NCBI GenBank assembly: GCA_937927515.1
Contig: CALBDO010000019.1
Coordinates: forward strand, 66,313-117,130
Direction of reading: 5' to 3'
Length of the DNA: 50,818 nt
From: Candidatus Kapaibacterium sp.
GTDB taxonomy: Bacteria; Bacteroidota; Ignavibacteria; Kapaibacteriales; UBA2268
Shown here one piece after another: positions 35,853 through 42,758 of the stretch. Below the pieces are notes generated by a model. The model was not told where the DNA came from and did no database searches. It saw only the letters and a program-made list of their open reading frames with translations. Position 1 is the stretch's first letter. The number at the start of each line of letters is the position of its first letter. Position numbers and translations under genes: made by a program.

Positions 35853-38360
35853 CTAAAAATCTTCCTGCATCCAAGTTTGAACATACGAAAGGAATTTTTT
35901 ACTTAAAGTTACGGCTTTTTCAAACTCATCGCTCTCACCAATGACATAGAACTCGGGTTTTTCCAAGTCTGGGTAAAGCAAGACAGAGTCGTCATTCATA
36001 AAAATTTTCACACCCTCGACCATTTGACGCTCATAATCTTTAGAAAATTCCAAAGCCTTTCGAATCACTTTACCTTTACTATGCCAAGGACATTCAACTT
36101 TTAAGACATTTTGAAACCGACGTGGTAAAATTTCATTTAACTGAGGGAGGGTATAGTTGGTTTTTGCAAGCATCTCGAGAATTTTACCGATGGAGTACAT
36201 TCCATCGCTTGCAAAAAGAAATTCAGTAAAAATAAATCCACCCCAAACTCCACCAACAAACTTAATCGACTCATCCCGTGTTGCTTCCATCATGGCAGAG
36301 TGGGAATTTTTAATCCTTACAACTTCTACATTATATTCACTGGCAACTTTTTCAATCTCATTTGAAGCAACAATTGTAACAGCAATCTTATAGGGCTCTT
36401 GGTGTTTGTTCGATTCTAAAAAGAGTTTTGTAACCATTGTAAGAAGTCTTTGAGGTGGATACAAAACACCACGATTGTCAATTACAAGAATCTTTTCAGC
36501 ACCAGGCTCGATTATAAAACCTAGTTCATAGCTGAGCGACTTCATGATTTTGCAAGCTTCGGGGCTGTCGGGCAGACTTCCCTCGGGTATTGGTTGATGT
36601 TTCATTGCATCTACGTAATCGTGTAACGAAAGTGTTTCGGCATTCAACTTTCCCAAGATAATTGGGAAGATTGTCGATGCAAGACCATATGAGTAATCCA
36701 TCAAAATTTTGAATCGCCTTTTTCTTATTATTTCAATATCAAGTGAATCGAGGAATCTATTAATATATATTTCATTGGTCCTTTCCGGGTAGTACAACTG
36801 TCCAACTTCGGAGAAATGCACTTTTTTAATATCTTCGCCAAAAAAGTATCTTTCGATAGTTTTGGCTTTGGAAAGATTAATATCTCGTCCATCATTGCTA
36901 AAAATTATAATATCTGTTTTCTCGGGGTTCCTCGGGGAACGACGGACGTGGAAACCACCAGAGTACTTACCTGTTCGCAGTTCCTGCCTTGTTTGTGGAA
37001 TTGAGGTTGTTTGCAAATCATTTACGTTCACTCCAACAGAAGCAAGGCCAGCAGTTATAGACCTTTTGATAATCCTCGATACCCTATCAGGGTCTCGGCT
37101 TGCAATTATTTTGGCATTCTTACCAAAGGACATACCAATAGCCATTCCGAGCTTTGCTCCAAACTCTGGATGAATTTCATAATTCGAGATTCCAGAGATT
37201 CTCGCACCAGTGAAGAGTTCCCTTTGCCATTTTTCCTCTTGTACGAGCGAACGAGAAAGTTTTGCACCATCCTCGACAAACTTCATTGGCCAAATCTTGA
37301 TGTTTGGTGAAATTGTAACTTCATTTCCAATTGTACATCCGACAGAAATAAAAACATTCTCACCAATTGTAACAGATTCTCCGATTGTACAATCGTAACA
37401 TACAACATCATCTGTCAATTCGGAAAAAGGACCTATTTTGACATTATCCCAAAGAACCGTACCCTTCATCCTCACCCCTTTTCCAACTTTTACATTCGAA
37501 CCAATAACACAATCAGTCAGCTCAGCGTAATCATCAATCAAAGAATTATCACCAATGACAACATTACCATTGAATTTGGCATTTGGAGAAATTGTACAAT
37601 TGTTACCCAAAATAAGATTTTCTTGTCTCGTTCCTTTTATCTTTACTTTTACTCTGCCCTTTAAAGCATCAATAATCCCATTTTGATATTCCTCCAAATT
37701 TCCAATGTCCTTCCAGTATCCATCGGCAACATAACCATACAACGGCATCTTGTTTCTAAGCATCAGCGGAAACAAATCCTTACTAAAATCGAATTCAGAT
37801 TGATACGGAATTAGGTCCAGCACATCGGGTTCGAGTATGTATATACCAGTATTAATTGTGTCCGAAAAAACTTCACCCCAAGATGGCTTCTCTAAAAATC
37901 GAACAATTTTCCCTTCTTGGTCGGTAATTACAATACCATATTGAAGAGGTACACTGACATGCGTAAGCAAAATTGTTGCCATAGCCTTTTTCGAAACATG
38001 GTAGTCAACAGCTTTCTCCAAGTCGAAATCAGTAAGAACATCCCCACTAATCACTATGAACCTATCATCAAGATATTCGTATGCGTTTTTCACAGCGCCA
38101 GCCGTTCCATAATCCGCTGTTGCGTGAACATACTTCATGTTCACATTAAATTTGCTTCCGTCTTTGAAGTATTCTGTAATTACTTCGGGTTGGAAATACA
38201 ATAGTGTAACAATGTCGCGAATTTGATACTTAACCAGAAGATTTAGAACGTGTTCCATAATTGGAACATTTAAAATGGGAACCATTGGCTTTGGAACAGT
38301 AATTGTTAATGGTCGCAAACGAGTTCCAAAGCCTCCAGCCATAATTACTGCTTTTTCCAT
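35853..38360 (-). CDS. NDP-sugar pyrophosphorylase fused to degenerate phosphomannomutase domain
   Basis: An 835-aa fusion. Residues 1-235 are a nucleotidyltransferase (MEKAVIMAGGFGTRLRPLT, with the GxGxRLxPLT site; KPMVPI). Left-handed beta-helix hexapeptide repeats follow (about 250-360), then a phosphohexomutase-like region (about 380-835). In the latter the phosphoserine loop TASHNP reads VRRSPRNP and the DGDxDR metal loop reads IDNRGVL, so mutase activity is doubtful. Similar fusions in cyanobacteria and other phyla are annotated as mannose-1-phosphate guanylyltransferases. The start is ATG 38360, 15 codons inside the open frame, where the conserved N-terminus begins. It is the first gene of the run ending at rsmE and probably supplies an activated sugar. 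Confidence 0.88.
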   Translation of the reverse strand: MEKAVIMAGGFGTRLRPLTITVPKPMVPILNVPIMEHVLNLLVKYQIRDIVTLLYFQPEVITEYFKDGSKFNVNMKYVHATADYGTAGAVKNAYEYLDDRFIVISGDVLTDFDLEKAVDYHVSKKAMATILLTHVSVPLQYGIVITDQEGKIVRFLEKPSWGEVFSDTINTGIYILEPDVLDLIPYQSEFDFSKDLFPLMLRNKMPLYGYVADGYWKDIGNLEEYQNGIIDALKGRVKVKIKGTRQENLILGNNCTISPNAKFNGNVVIGDNSLIDDYAELTDCVIGSNVKVGKGVRMKGTVLWDNVKIGPFSELTDDVVCYDCTIGESVTIGENVFISVGCTIGNEVTISPNIKIWPMKFVEDGAKLSRSLVQEEKWQRELFTGARISGISNYEIHPEFGAKLGMAIGMSFGKNAKIIASRDPDRVSRIIKRSITAGLASVGVNVNDLQTTSIPQTRQELRTGKYSGGFHVRRSPRNPEKTDIIIFSNDGRDINLSKAKTIERYFFGEDIKKVHFSEVGQLYYPERTNEIYINRFLDSLDIEIIRKRRFKILMDYSYGLASTIFPIILGKLNAETLSLHDYVDAMKHQPIPEGSLPDSPEACKIMKSLSYELGFIIEPGAEKILVIDNRGVLYPPQRLLTMVTKLFLESNKHQEPYKIAVTIVASNEIEKVASEYNVEVVRIKNSHSAMMEATRDESIKFVGGVWGGFIFTEFLFASDGMYSIGKILEMLAKTNYTLPQLNEILPRRFQNVLKVECPWHSKGKVIRKALEFSKDYERQMVEGVKIFMNDDSVLLYPDLEKPEFYVIGESDEFEKAVTLSKKFLSYVQTWMQEDF

Positions 38361-38462
38361 ATTTAACAAAGAATTTTCAAAAGTGTAATATAAGCAAATT
38401 TGCAATAATAAATGGTTAAAGACGTTTACTTTTTTTGTTAATTGAATAATTTGGAGGTGTTT

Positions 38463-39836
38463 ATGAATCGTACACTTTCTTTATTGCTTATTCTTACATT
38501 ACTTTCACTTTATCCTACACTCTCTCAAACCCTTCAGCCAATTCCAATAACAGTCGGACCAAGTCCAACCTATATTAACGGTTTTTTTAGTTTCACAAAA
38601 AATGATTATAAATTAATCGTAACAACACTTGGAATCGATGCGAATTTTAACGGAATCGAAGACTCGGGTGATGTAAAACCAGCCTTATACCAAATTTCTC
38701 TCAATAAAATTTTAACTGGGAATTACCAAGGTGATATGCTAACCGAGCTTGAATTTGCATCTCTGCCTTTTCCAACACGTATCTATGTTGACAATTCTGG
38801 GAATTTTGCTTACGTACCAAGCAAGCTCTCCCTAAAAAAGATATTACTTGAAACTGGAAACATCATAAGCACTATTAATCCTTTCAAAAATTTGGAACTA
38901 CCAGAAGATGCAATTATAACTTCTGTCTACCTTATGGATAACTTAATCTTCCTTACCGTCCATGGAACCGAATTCGATAAACTTTACATTATTGACGAAA
39001 ATACTAACCAGATTTTGGTTGATACAAATACCGACCCTTATCCCATACAAACCATTGTGGCTGGAAAGTACTTATTTATTCTTACTGAAGGTACATTCGG
39101 ACAAAACAATTCAAAACTTTGGGTTTATGAGATTGACAATACTCAAGGTTTGTATTTAAATTACGCAAAAGAATTTGATATTGGCGATGGTGGTAATCAT
39201 ATCTTTAACTATCAAAACAACAAGTTATTAATAACAATGAATGGCTCTCATGAAATTCTTATTTTAGATATACCTAATCTTCAAATCGAAGATACAATTA
39301 AAACACCAACAACTGGTTTCGATGGTCCGAGGGAATCTAATGTAGTTGGAGATAACGCAATAGTAGTTTCGGCTTACGACGGTAACCTTTATACTTTCGA
39401 TTTCAACGGAAACCAGCTATCCAAAATATCTTTGAATTCAAAATTAGAAGGAATATTTTCCTACTCTTTAAATCCAGTCTTAAATTACTATATTGTTGCT
39501 GTAACTAGCCCTTTCCTTCTTGATTACTCTCCTAACGATAAAGTTTATCTTTTTGTCAACTTCTCTAACGTTGAAGAATCAAGTTTGCAAACTAAAGTGA
39601 AACTTTACCCAAATCCATCAAGAGATTATATTTCTTTGAAATTTGAAGAAATTTATGCGGATATTTTACATCTTTCAATAGTTAATGTCATGGGACAGAC
39701 CGTTAAAGAGTATCAGTTTAAATTTGCTGGTGATGGAATCAAGGTTCCAGTAGATGACTTGCCTATCGGTTCTTATGCTGTACATATTTCATACGATGGC
39801 AAAAACTTCGCAATTCCTTTTAGTATAATTCGCTGA
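38463..39836 (+). CDS. T9SS-exported beta-propeller-like protein (YncE/BtuG-like), partner of TonB receptor
   Basis: A 457-aa exported protein: signal peptide (1-21, ending LYPTLSQ), a body of about 350 residues of repeated beta strands (such as DNLIFLTVHGTEFDKLYIID, FILTEGTFGQNNSKLWVYEI and KLLITMNGSHEILILDI) resembling YncE/DUF5074 propellers, and a T9SS type A tail (about 378-457; KLYPNPSRDYISLKF, NVMGQTVKEY, DLPIGSYAVHI). ATG 38463 has GGAGGTG upstream and replaces an earlier start. It overlaps the TonB-receptor gene by one base. The arrangement recalls BtuG-BtuB, where a surface propeller captures cobalamin, but anchoring here would be by T9SS rather than a lipid. Ligand unknown; no cobalamin riboswitch is seen upstream. 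Confidence 0.8.
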   Translation: MNRTLSLLLILTLLSLYPTLSQTLQPIPITVGPSPTYINGFFSFTKNDYKLIVTTLGIDANFNGIEDSGDVKPALYQISLNKILTGNYQGDMLTELEFASLPFPTRIYVDNSGNFAYVPSKLSLKKILLETGNIISTINPFKNLELPEDAIITSVYLMDNLIFLTVHGTEFDKLYIIDENTNQILVDTNTDPYPIQTIVAGKYLFILTEGTFGQNNSKLWVYEIDNTQGLYLNYAKEFDIGDGGNHIFNYQNNKLLITMNGSHEILILDIPNLQIEDTIKTPTTGFDGPRESNVVGDNAIVVSAYDGNLYTFDFNGNQLSKISLNSKLEGIFSYSLNPVLNYYIVAVTSPFLLDYSPNDKVYLFVNFSNVEESSLQTKVKLYPNPSRDYISLKFEEIYADILHLSIVNVMGQTVKEYQFKFAGDGIKVPVDDLPIGSYAVHISYDGKNFAIPFSIIR

Positions 39837-41761
39837 TGGCTTTTGCTATAATTGTATTACTATGGGCTGCGTTGTTCTTATTACCTTGCTTTTCGAATGA
39901 TACGCTTGAATACAAAGTCCAAAAAGGAGTTACGGTCGAAAGTGTAAAGGAAAAATATGTAAAAGTTCATAGCATAACTAAATCACAACTCGAACTCAGT
40001 AACTGGGCACTTAACAATAGTGCCCAGGCTGTTTCTATTCTTCCTGGTATTTACGTTCGCGACTATGGCGGTATTGGCGGTCTCAAGACGGTATCTTTAC
40101 GAGGTTTCTCTTCAGCAGACGTTGGAGTTCTCTTGGATGGAGTTAAAATCAATAGCCCACAAAATGGAATTGTCGACCTCTCGCTTATACCATTAGATGC
40201 CTTCGAACAAGTAGAACTTACCCGTGGTGGAGCATCTTTCATTCACGGCAATAACACCTCCTCTGGGTATTTGAACTTTACTTTATCCAAAAGCAATAAG
40301 TCCACTCTACTCTTTTCGTATGGTTCTTTTCAACAATTAAAACTAAACTTTAAATTACCATTTCATTTACTAAATTTCCAAAAAAGTTTAATAGTCTTGG
40401 ACTACTATTCCTCCGATGGCAGATACCCAATTGATGTTTACCAATTCGATACTAAGAAAACCGTTTATAGAGATAACAATAAAATTAGTAGAATCTCTGT
40501 TTTTTCAATTAATCACATCGAATTATCGCACCTCATAGGTTCGGCAAATATTATTTACACTAATTCAGTACGAGGAGTGCCAGGTGCAGTCGTTCAAAAC
40601 AGAATCGAAAACAAAGAAACAAAATTATATGATGAGCTTTTGTTTTTGAACTTAAAACTGATACCAACTTTTTTCTCCCGAAATTTTAAAATACTTTTAG
40701 GCAGCGTAATGATAAGAAATAAATTCTTCGACCCTGTAATGAACCCACTTTTAACTGGTAAACAAACAGTTAATTATTTGAATACCGAGAACTCGCTAAA
40801 GTTTATATACGAGAGCCCAACACGATTTGTCGATGTTTACGCCTATGCAGAAGCAAACTCCAGCTCTGTGCAAGGTGATATGTTGGAAAATCCCGAAAAT
40901 GCAAAAATTAACAGAAATAATGTTGCTCTGGGTGCCTTGGCTAGAAGAAACCTTATTGAAAACAGATTTCTCATTGGTATCGAGGCAAGTTTCAGAACTG
41001 ATTTTATTACCAAGAAAACTCATAAATTCTCGCACTATCTTGGGGTTTTTCTAATAGACACCTCTTTAAATATAATTACCAAAGTTAATTACTCTGAAAA
41101 TTTTCGCCTTCCCTCTTTCAACGAACTGTATTTTTTGAATTACGGAACCCAGGATTTGTTACCAGAAAAGACCTCTGGTTTCAATCTTGAATTTGACTTT
41201 TCCATTAAAAACATATTCCAAGCCTCCATCTGCGCGTTTTACTTCTCAACTGTTGACAAAATCATTTCAATACCAAAATCTCCCTTACAATGGTCGGCTA
41301 AGAACATCTCCAAGACAAGTTCAAAAGGATTGGAGATCTCACTTAGCACCAAAAATAAACTTTTTAACGCGCTCTTTTCATTGTCTTTTTTATCGACACT
41401 AGATGAAACAAAAGATTCCCCCACATACAACAAGCAACTTATTTACACCCCAAATATCATTTCTAACACTCTGATAAACTTTCCAATACCAAACAATTTT
41501 TCTTTTACACTTCGTTCAAATTTTGTTGGTAAAAGATATTTCCTGGCGGACAATTCAAAGAATTCCGAACTCAAGTCATATTTTTTGCTCGATATTGTAA
41601 CAAGCAAAACAATAAATTTGAAAAAATATTCGATTGTGTTTAATTTTGAAATTTGTAATGTTCTTAACACCAAATATGAAGTAATAGTAAATTATCCAAT
41701 GCCCAAACGATATTTTGTCTTTTCAATTAAATGTTTTTTTAAAAATGATGAAACCTTATAA
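39836..41761 (+). CDS. TonB-dependent outer-membrane receptor
   Basis: A 641-aa receptor of the BtuB/siderophore type. After a signal peptide (about 1-20) comes a plug domain (about 45-150: VSILPGIYVRDYGGIGGLKTV, SLRGFSSADVGVLLDGVKIN and VELTRGGASFIHGNNTSSGYL, in three segments). The rest forms a barrel with many alternating strands, including ENFRLPSFNELYFLNYG and ending FVFSIKCFF. No carboxypeptidase-like SusC domain is present, so it is not a SusC. It is translationally coupled to the propeller gene (TGATG) and overlaps the next gene by 17 nt. Substrate unknown; a cobalamin- or metallophore-type cargo is plausible. Confidence 0.93.
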   Translation: MAFAIIVLLWAALFLLPCFSNDTLEYKVQKGVTVESVKEKYVKVHSITKSQLELSNWALNNSAQAVSILPGIYVRDYGGIGGLKTVSLRGFSSADVGVLLDGVKINSPQNGIVDLSLIPLDAFEQVELTRGGASFIHGNNTSSGYLNFTLSKSNKSTLLFSYGSFQQLKLNFKLPFHLLNFQKSLIVLDYYSSDGRYPIDVYQFDTKKTVYRDNNKISRISVFSINHIELSHLIGSANIIYTNSVRGVPGAVVQNRIENKETKLYDELLFLNLKLIPTFFSRNFKILLGSVMIRNKFFDPVMNPLLTGKQTVNYLNTENSLKFIYESPTRFVDVYAYAEANSSSVQGDMLENPENAKINRNNVALGALARRNLIENRFLIGIEASFRTDFITKKTHKFSHYLGVFLIDTSLNIITKVNYSENFRLPSFNELYFLNYGTQDLLPEKTSGFNLEFDFSIKNIFQASICAFYFSTVDKIISIPKSPLQWSAKNISKTSSKGLEISLSTKNKLFNALFSLSFLSTLDETKDSPTYNKQLIYTPNIISNTLINFPIPNNFSFTLRSNFVGKRYFLADNSKNSELKSYFLLDIVTSKTINLKKYSIVFNFEICNVLNTKYEVIVNYPMPKRYFVFSIKCFFKNDETL

Positions 41762-42758
41762 CATTTTAATTGTCGAAGATGACTATACGGCACTACAAGT
41801 GCTCAAAAGAATACTTTCCGCGGAAAAATACACATCCATAGCGGTCGACAATGTTGAAGATGCCTTAGCAGTGCTAAACAGAGAAAAAATCGATTTAATT
41901 ATAACAGACTGGATGATGCCAAACATTGACGGAATTGAGTTTATCTATCGTGTCAAAGCACTTTTAAAGAATCCGCCCCCAATAATTGTTGTTTCTGCGC
42001 TCACTGCCGAAATGGCAAAAGACTATGCTTTGAAATCTGGTGCAGTGGAATTTATTGAAAAGCCAATAAATACTAAAAAGTTTCTGGAAATTGTCAAAAA
42101 TATCATAGAAAAGCATACTCAATTAACAAACGTTTATAAAATCAAAGAACATTCCTATCCTCCTTTCATTTCAGTTGCAATCCTGGCGGGGAATGGTAGC
42201 TCTCAACCACTTCTACAAATATTTGAAGATTTAAAGGATTTCAACGAAAACATCGTTTACATTGTCATTTTCCAGGGAAGTGTAAATCTTTTAGATAATA
42301 TTGTTTTACAATTAAAAGAAAAATTATTAAAAAAGGTCTTAATTCTCCAAGAAACTTCCAAACCAGAACCCAATTGCGTTTATTTCGCTCCAGATAATTA
42401 TCACATCCTTTTCAATGAGAATTATGAACTTGTAGTCGATAGCGGACCTAAAGAAAACTATCAACGACCTTCTGCAGAACCTTTATTCCGAAGCTTAGCA
42501 AATTATTTTGGGAAATTCTCTATTGCTGTTGTACTTTCTGGTTTGGGAAGCGATGGTGTACAAGGGGCTTACCATATCAAATCTCATAATGGTATAATTA
42601 TTTGCCAAGAACCAACAACTGCCCTTGCTCCAACTTTACCCAAATCTTTCATAAATTCTGTGATTGAACCTATTGTGCTTTTGCCGAATCAAATCGCGAC
42701 AAAGATACAAGAATTAACAAAAAATTTGCTTTTTGAAATTTCAACAAAAAAAGTATAA
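41745..42758 (+). CDS. Response regulator with pseudo-CheB (methylesterase-like) output domain
   Basis: A 337-aa REC-CheB-type protein. The receiver is complete: EDD (about 11-13), phosphoacceptor D55 in LIITDWMMP, Ser/Thr in VVSALT, K106 in FIEKP. The C-terminal domain (about 140-330) has the CheB fold: YFAPDNYHIL, RPSAEPLFRSLA and VVLSGLGSDGVQGA with the Asp (D270). The catalytic Ser motif GxSxGG is replaced by AGNGSSQ (N150 at the Ser position), and the catalytic His of VQHMP reads FQGS (G178). It is therefore probably not a working methylesterase. ATG 41745 or 41748 could be the start; both overlap the receptor gene. No CheR or receptor gene is nearby. Confidence 0.88.
   Translation: MMKPYNILIVEDDYTALQVLKRILSAEKYTSIAVDNVEDALAVLNREKIDLIITDWMMPNIDGIEFIYRVKALLKNPPPIIVVSALTAEMAKDYALKSGAVEFIEKPINTKKFLEIVKNIIEKHTQLTNVYKIKEHSYPPFISVAILAGNGSSQPLLQIFEDLKDFNENIVYIVIFQGSVNLLDNIVLQLKEKLLKKVLILQETSKPEPNCVYFAPDNYHILFNENYELVVDSGPKENYQRPSAEPLFRSLANYFGKFSIAVVLSGLGSDGVQGAYHIKSHNGIIICQEPTTALAPTLPKSFINSVIEPIVLLPNQIATKIQELTKNLLFEISTKKV

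Follow-up and report, generated by a model that had tools for sequence, protein, structure and literature searches.

Background

BtuB1-BtuG1 of Bacteroides thetaiotaomicron is a described system in which a BtuB receptor is joined by a surface propeller partner (8blw; PMC10404256). The accessible part of that paper describes BtuBG complexes and the BtuH domain of BtuG1; BtuG1 is N-terminally lipidated, has the standard blade order and is fused to its BtuH domain, and the loci carry B12 riboswitches. For the seven-bladed propeller BtuG2 (3dsm, 8bmx), the same part of the paper reports that Tyr239 contacts B12, that the hydrogen bonds to cobalamin come from blades 1-4 and that Asp236 lies opposite the hinge. 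The gene pair analyzed in this study is located in a stretch of 50,818 nucleotides (nt) from Candidatus Kapaibacterium sp. (assembly GCA_937927515.1, contig CALBDO010000019.1, positions 66,313 to 117,130), referred to as the window. It consists of propA (38463..39836, plus strand, 457 amino acids (aa)) and a gene for a BtuB-type TonB-dependent receptor (39836..41761, plus strand, 641 aa). Probably, the pair is a vitamin B12 uptake system whose surface propeller is a BtuG relative that is exported by the type IX secretion system (T9SS) and probably circularly permuted.

Unlike BtuG1, propA is encoded upstream of BtuB, is probably permuted and carries a C-terminal T9SS tail, and the BtuH-like domain is a separate protein. 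The B12 riboswitches and the BtuH domain of the BtuB1-BtuG1 loci have counterparts here, both in relatives. BtuG2 also differs from propA, being an unpermuted lipoprotein with a lipobox and an export signal, and a search of 313 gut genomes found the BtuG lipoprotein family confined to Bacteroidetes (both from the accessible part of PMC6143338). BtuH2 (7biz) is a surface B12 binder of such loci with a fold different from that of propA; loci with relatives of the present pair also encode a BtuH-like domain that bears a T9SS-like tail. DUF4465 B12 binders have been reported (PMC13398666, in part accessible). In the available part of PMC12578637, BtuG and type IX secretion are named only in the reference list, and that of PMC9723704 describes a cobalamin riboswitch ahead of a TonB receptor in Flavobacterium psychrophilum with no mention of a T9SS partner.

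In the literature searched, which comprised papers accessible in part and had most subscription papers and all preprints outside its scope, we found no description of a BtuG that is permuted or has a T9SS tail. Nor do we know of any T9SS cargo that is a vitamin-capture partner of a TonB receptor, and none was seen in this literature. If our interpretation is true, partner capture by TonB receptors extends from lipoproteins to T9SS cargo, and a riboswitch is linked to a T9SS-secreted nutrient catcher. Furthermore, propA suggests natural circular permutation within a vitamin-binding protein family. As much is known of BtuG biochemistry, purified proteins would allow direct tests of binding, docking and the position of the anchor.

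A BtuB-type receptor overlapping propA

The start codon of propA is an ATG preceded by GGAGG. At its end, the letters TGATGG hold both the stop codon TGA of propA and the ATG of the receptor, which share the single base 39836. An original prediction, made from the letters of the window, had pointed out this overlap, which the coordinates of the open reading frames (ORFs) bear out. It had also taken the pair for a possible BtuG-BtuB analogue, a view that the profile matches with BtuB1 and BtuG of Bacteroides and the riboswitches directly upstream in relatives now support.

The receptor matched the Pfam families Plug (67.4 bits) and TonB_dep_Rec barrel (65.4 bits) above their cut-offs. A profile of 40 receptor relatives, searched against the PDB, matched B. 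thetaiotaomicron BtuB1 (8blw_A) over the full length at E 6e-108. Among the ten top distinct PDB sequences, 8 are named vitamin B12 receptor or transporter, and the remaining two (8bmx_C and 8p97_A) are receptor chains in entries that also contain a YncE/BtuG-type chain. The next match of the profile was the colicin I receptor at E 1.9e-35, and the same ten sequences ranked first when the window receptor alone was the query. Among solved receptors, the known cobalamin receptors are thus the ones nearest to the window protein. It is the sole strong BtuB-like match in its genome, the next one having an E-value of 1.3e-8.

In a tree of 77 BtuB rows, the window BtuB grouped with its 4 congeners with full support (SH-aLRT 100). 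This clade sits among Kapabacteria/Ignavibacteria rows, and the 20 Bacteroidota BtuBs form one clade; 37 of 57 Bacteroidota rows were omitted from the tree, as were 12 named loci presumed, though not each checked, to be duplicates. The long row L128 did not cluster with the remaining 52 rows of its group.

Homology of propA to BtuG and probable circular permutation

Profile comparisons establish propA as a homologue of BtuG. Its best matches in the PDB were BtuG1 chains (E 2.6e-22 to 3.8e-22), and profile-profile comparison with the lipoprotein BtuG gave 99.2%. In the comparison with BtuG profiles (DUF5074/YncE) that had been proposed along with the original prediction, BtuG1 was best in the PDB, and DUF5074 had no match in the window propA, nor was it among the 14 families matched by the 28 propA rows (A1) at E 0.01. 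A double propA protein (L108) reached 20.5 bits with DUF5074, below the cut-off of 27.2, and the family was matched by 13 of the 19 lipoprotein BtuG rows (A2) at E 0.01.

In native order, only the C-terminal half of propA matched BtuG (A1 197-380 to BtuG 37-231), and residues 191-368 of the propA profile aligned with residues 10-190 of a BtuG1 chain. This half corresponds to BtuG blades 1-4; the N-terminal half aligns more weakly, and in register, with blades 5-7. The alignment of propA to a tandem BtuG profile spanned 303 columns, and the score rose from 143 to 186. A rotation scan with hhalign, in which one cut was placed every 14 residues, peaked at a single cut before residue 202, with gains from 143 to 185 against Kapabacteria BtuG and from 169 to 215 against 48 Bacteroidota BtuGs. 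BtuG itself scored best against the Bacteroidota set when left unrotated (400). These comparisons suggest that propA is probably a circular permutant of BtuG with the blade order 5-6-7-1-2-3-4, followed by the T9SS tail. The half-length match in native order and the rotation scan rule out that propA is simply BtuG with a swapped tail. Hence, the predicted BtuG-like surface protein with a changed anchor stands as far as BtuG relationship and T9SS tail are concerned, but the probable permutation makes it more than an anchor swap.

HMMER alignment of propA to BtuG2 covered both halves in swapped order, with the N-terminal half (A1 28-177) placed on BtuG2 213-357. The N-terminal half also aligned in permuted register (7-156 to about 169-347) with three chains that we take to be of the BtuG3 type. 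In the HMMER alignment to BtuG2, on which residue equivalences were counted by hand, the propA motif D59-x-N-F62-x-G...D-x-G-D-x-x-P (38637..38681, plus strand), ending in P-S, falls on the BtuG2 loop Asp236-Pro249 bearing Tyr239 (8bmx_D; loop as described in the accessible part of PMC10404256), and a phenylalanine ahead of a conserved P-x-R aligns with Trp272. Asp59 is conserved in 28 of 28 propA rows, residue 62 is aromatic in all 28, and residue 103 is F or Y in at least 23 of 28.

Tandem proteins of roughly 780 aa, each with two probably permuted propellers, were observed at L108 (7365-9683), L094 (7726-10107), L076 (6670-9030) and L142 (9868-12255), and L148 contains three propA ORFs in a row ahead of BtuB. 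In the L142 protein, BtuG is matched over its full length by a stretch that begins halfway through the first unit and ends halfway through the second; this match scored 124.8 bits (104.9 without the second part), and 126.4 bits with the Bacteroidota profile (114.1 without it).

Fold, sorting tail and predicted export of propA

An AlphaFold2 model of propA, built on 11 alignment rows, had a mean pLDDT (predicted local distance difference test) of 84.7. Residues 22-372 (38526..39578, plus strand) form a propeller, in line with the structure expected for the surface protein. The VIA-align matches listed for the model were WD40 proteins and YncE, with Z 30-32 over about 280-300 residues; we take these to be seven-bladed propellers.

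The Pfam family Por_Secre_tail matched propA residues 381-448 (39603..39806, plus strand) with 35.9 bits (cut-off 27). The N-terminus is signal-like as assessed by eye, and no lipobox pattern is present in it. The T9SS translocon protein SprA was found in 5 of 5 genomes of the genus, and the own genome has 77 sorting-tail matches. With a Por_Secre_tail sorting domain, a signal-like N-terminus and a translocon gene in the genome, propA thus shares the features of T9SS type A cargo. That a T9SS tail takes the place of a lipobox is correct for this protein, but not for the cell, as a lipoprotein BtuG is encoded elsewhere in the genus.

Tails and lipoboxes are distributed accordingly in the two families. 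Our own tail profile detected tails in 54 of 59 propA ORFs and in none of 82 BtuG ORFs, 65 of which have a lipobox pattern; some genes entered these counts twice, and 26 of the propA rows had served to build the profile. In an independent Pfam check at E 0.01, Por_Secre_tail was matched by 20 of 28 propA rows, and none was listed for the 19 BtuG rows. Two propA ORFs, L123 and L126, have a lipobox and no tail, indicating that the anchor is exchangeable within the propA family.

Conserved neighborhood and cobalamin riboswitches

Gene positions and matches to the cobalamin riboswitch model RF00174 were compared by script in 60 genomes, our own and 59 relatives. propA is present in 46 of these and lies directly upstream of BtuB in 30 (29 by script, plus G057 with a weak BtuB match). 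The neighborhood of the two genes thus exceeds chance and persists in relatives, as the BtuG-BtuB analogy had led to expect.

The riboswitch was found in 48 of the 60 genomes. The nearest same-strand family gene behind it was propA in 39 cases, lipoprotein BtuG in 5 and BtuB in 4, at distances of 46-402 nt, a count that omits the second riboswitch of G044. In every one of the 39 riboswitch-bearing genomes with propA, propA starts 46-367 nt behind a riboswitch. This linkage persists where BtuB lies on another contig or 1.2 Mb off, and the riboswitch is with propA in 14 of the 16 genomes in which propA is not beside BtuB (exceptions G025 and G032). Seven propA genomes are without a riboswitch (G000-G004, G025 and G032). 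In the first 23 named loci (L130-L152), of which several come from the same genomes as the G-labelled ones and some lie on contigs ending too early to tell, 10 had a riboswitch within the DNA covered: 8 ahead of propA, 1 ahead of a BtuH-like gene and 1 ahead of BtuG.

The original prediction had noted that no cobalamin riboswitch is visible upstream of the pair. This is borne out, as neither the window nor the whole genome yielded one, nor did 37800-38800 when scanned with a lax threshold. A hidden riboswitch in the genus was considered and rejected: lax Rfam scans of 37800-38800 and of the loci of four congeners gave no RF00174. The ligand, left open at that time, can now be named. The profile matches to BtuB and BtuG and the riboswitches upstream in relatives point to cobalamin, which is very probably the ligand of the pair.

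The second cobalamin riboswitch of G044 is located at L115 6851-7094, upstream of an ORF that presumably resembles a ribonucleotide reductase small subunit.

BtuG, BtuH-like proteins and B12 metabolism

The locus order propA, BtuB, a protein of about 300 aa and a lipoprotein propeller was found in 13 of 61 mapped loci. The lipoprotein propeller is BtuG, its profile matching BtuG1 at 7e-59 over the propeller. Lipoprotein BtuG reached at least 170 bits in 55 of the 60 genomes, and in 5 of 5 genomes of the genus it is encoded elsewhere in the genome (in G001 as two contig-edge pieces). Since BtuG is so widely retained, propA is an addition to BtuG and not a replacement; a scenario in which the genus lost BtuG and substitutes propA is ruled out by the orphan lipoprotein BtuG in all five genomes. 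In our genome this orphan is located at G000:C32:22668-23738 (L222 8663-9745), with no BtuB beside it in the stretches read, next to a gene we take to be pdxA-like.

One model of the protein of about 300 aa (L134) matched the BtuG1 H-domain (Z 12.9) and BtuH2 (Z 12.8) with its N-terminal part and T9SS sorting domains (Z up to 9.9) with its C-terminal part. In two such proteins the tail scored just under the TIGR04183 cut-off (22.0 and 22.4 versus 23 bits). Based on the model, we read this protein as a putative BtuH with a T9SS tail. Such BtuH-like proteins (L134 8773-9660 and relatives) are encoded at 16 of the 61 mapped loci, for the most part downstream of BtuB.

The other 57 named loci (L153-L209) are the best of a longer list and are labelled Bacteroidota, except for one metagenome-assembled genome labelled Clostridium. 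None of them contained propA, and BtuG exceeded 70 bits in 48.

MetH was found above the cut-off in the own genome (a 970-aa part), and CbiC, a protein of corrin-ring synthesis, was not matched in any of the 8 genomes examined. Together, the cobalamin-dependent methionine synthase and the lack of a detectable CbiC suggest that the cell needs to scavenge B12. PF01497 (BtuF) matched one gene in 4 of 5 genomes of the genus and in 0 of 3 other relatives; in NCBIfam, this gene of G000 scored above the cut-off for TroA_like and below it for BtuF.

Proposed role and alternative explanations

Taken together, the pair is likely to form the outer-membrane part of cobamide (vitamin B12) scavenging, in which T9SS-exported propA would catch corrinoids and the BtuB of the overlapping gene would import them. 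Sorting tail and translocon suggest that propA is exported by the T9SS, and surface attachment would follow from T9SS biology. Its central propeller pocket may hold the corrinoids. We infer this capture, and the hydrogen bonds of BtuG2 arise from blades 1-4, the part that is best conserved in propA (PMC10404256, accessible part). propA would then hand the corrinoids directly to BtuB, which presumably imports them with energy provided by TonB. Riboswitch control is absent in the window's genus and was presumably lost.

As BtuG is still present, we lean slightly towards propA being an extra catcher that feeds BtuG and BtuB, over a lid capping BtuB. An unlikely elaboration is that propA is a circularly permuted, T9SS-tethered second lid, with two propellers hinged from opposite sides, or a propeller whose surface tether lets it ferry B12 to a BtuG-capped BtuB. 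By analogy with BtuG2, the permutation would put the tether of propA close to the edge between blades 4 and 5. On BtuG2, this edge is the side that opens wide (Asp236), and the lipid-anchored hinge is on the opposite side (accessible part of PMC10404256). Both ends of the propA chain are predicted to lie near the place equivalent to Asp236, and a lid with its tether at this place would have to open from the opposite direction.

A number of observations weigh against the proposed scavenging role or the permutation. On the genomic level, all 5 genomes of the window's genus lack the riboswitch, and 14 of the 60 genomes have no propA match, 9 of these being riboswitch-bearing. propA was not seen beside BtuB in 16 of 46 genomes; in most of these the two are on separate contigs, some at contig ends, and in G045 they are 1.2 Mb apart on the same contig. 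G021 has a second propA-like gene (G021:C38:252322-253674, 168 bits) that is not behind a riboswitch. The best NCBIfam match of the receptor, TIGR01779 (TonB-B12), reached only 101.3 bits versus a cut-off of 599.7. The riboswitch-linked relative L085 is likewise low (116.6 bits), and on sequence grounds the receptor is classed as BtuB-type and not as a TIGR01779 member. No BtuG chain was among the 50 matches listed by Foldseek or VIA-align for the propA model; more matches existed than these 50, and this absence does not exclude BtuG. Among the positions of the BtuG2 pocket aromatics, those of Tyr239 and Trp272 are mostly aromatic in propA, and that of Tyr316 appears non-aromatic. In HMMER, the N-terminal half of propA alone scored 27.1 bits with BtuG1 versus 27.0 with hydrazine synthase beta. 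The rotation gain was small (mean best-domain bits 43.0 in native order, maximum 46.6), and mean full-sequence bits were 55.4 in native order versus 51.9 at cut 202.

These last values bear on the question whether propA is a hybrid that shares only blades 1-4 with BtuG and received its remaining blades from another origin. Besides the small HMMER gain and the unspecific profile of the N-terminal half in the PDB, this half matched the C-terminal half of BtuG (7.9e-7) no better than propA's own C-terminal half (1.9e-7). Taken alone in L142, it is weak (6.7 to 17.7 bits), and a phmmer search of the PDB with the second-unit N-terminal half of L142 gave just a CRP chain at E 0.97 and no propeller. 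However, the N-terminal half aligns in permuted register with BtuG2 and the presumed BtuG3-type chains, the propA motif falls on the BtuG2 loop Asp236-Pro249, and the L142 tandem carries its full-length BtuG match across two units. We therefore regard a hybrid as unlikely; it concerns only the origin of the N-terminal blades and is compatible with a B12 role.

A repurposed pair, in which receptor and propeller of the window's genus serve another ligand such as a siderophore or heme, is quite improbable. It would fit the missing riboswitch in all five genomes of the genus, the orphan position of the lipoprotein BtuG elsewhere and the NCBIfam B12-receptor score under its cut-off. But the receptor still matches B12 receptors best and is the only strong BtuB-like one in a genome with MetH and no detected CbiC, and the D-x-N-F motif is retained. 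Finally, that propA is ordinary T9SS cargo without a part in B12 uptake, placed beside a TonB receptor by chance, is very improbable: such cargo is common in this genome (77 tail matches) and the listed structural neighbors are generic propellers, yet the best sequence relatives in the PDB are BtuGs and propA directly follows the riboswitch wherever both occur, even with BtuB far away.

Surroundings of the pair in the window

Ahead of propA lies a divergent intergenic region of 102 bp (38361..38462, no strand assigned) without a cobalamin riboswitch, a length that assumes that the divergent gene starts with the ATG at 38360. Most relatives outside the genus carry such a riboswitch immediately ahead of propA. 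Downstream of BtuB, a gene occupies 41748-42758, with its ATG falling within the 3'-end of BtuB. G001 and G002 have a relative of it at the corresponding position, whereas G003 and G004 do not. Its product is presumably a response-regulator receiver fused to a CheB-like part.

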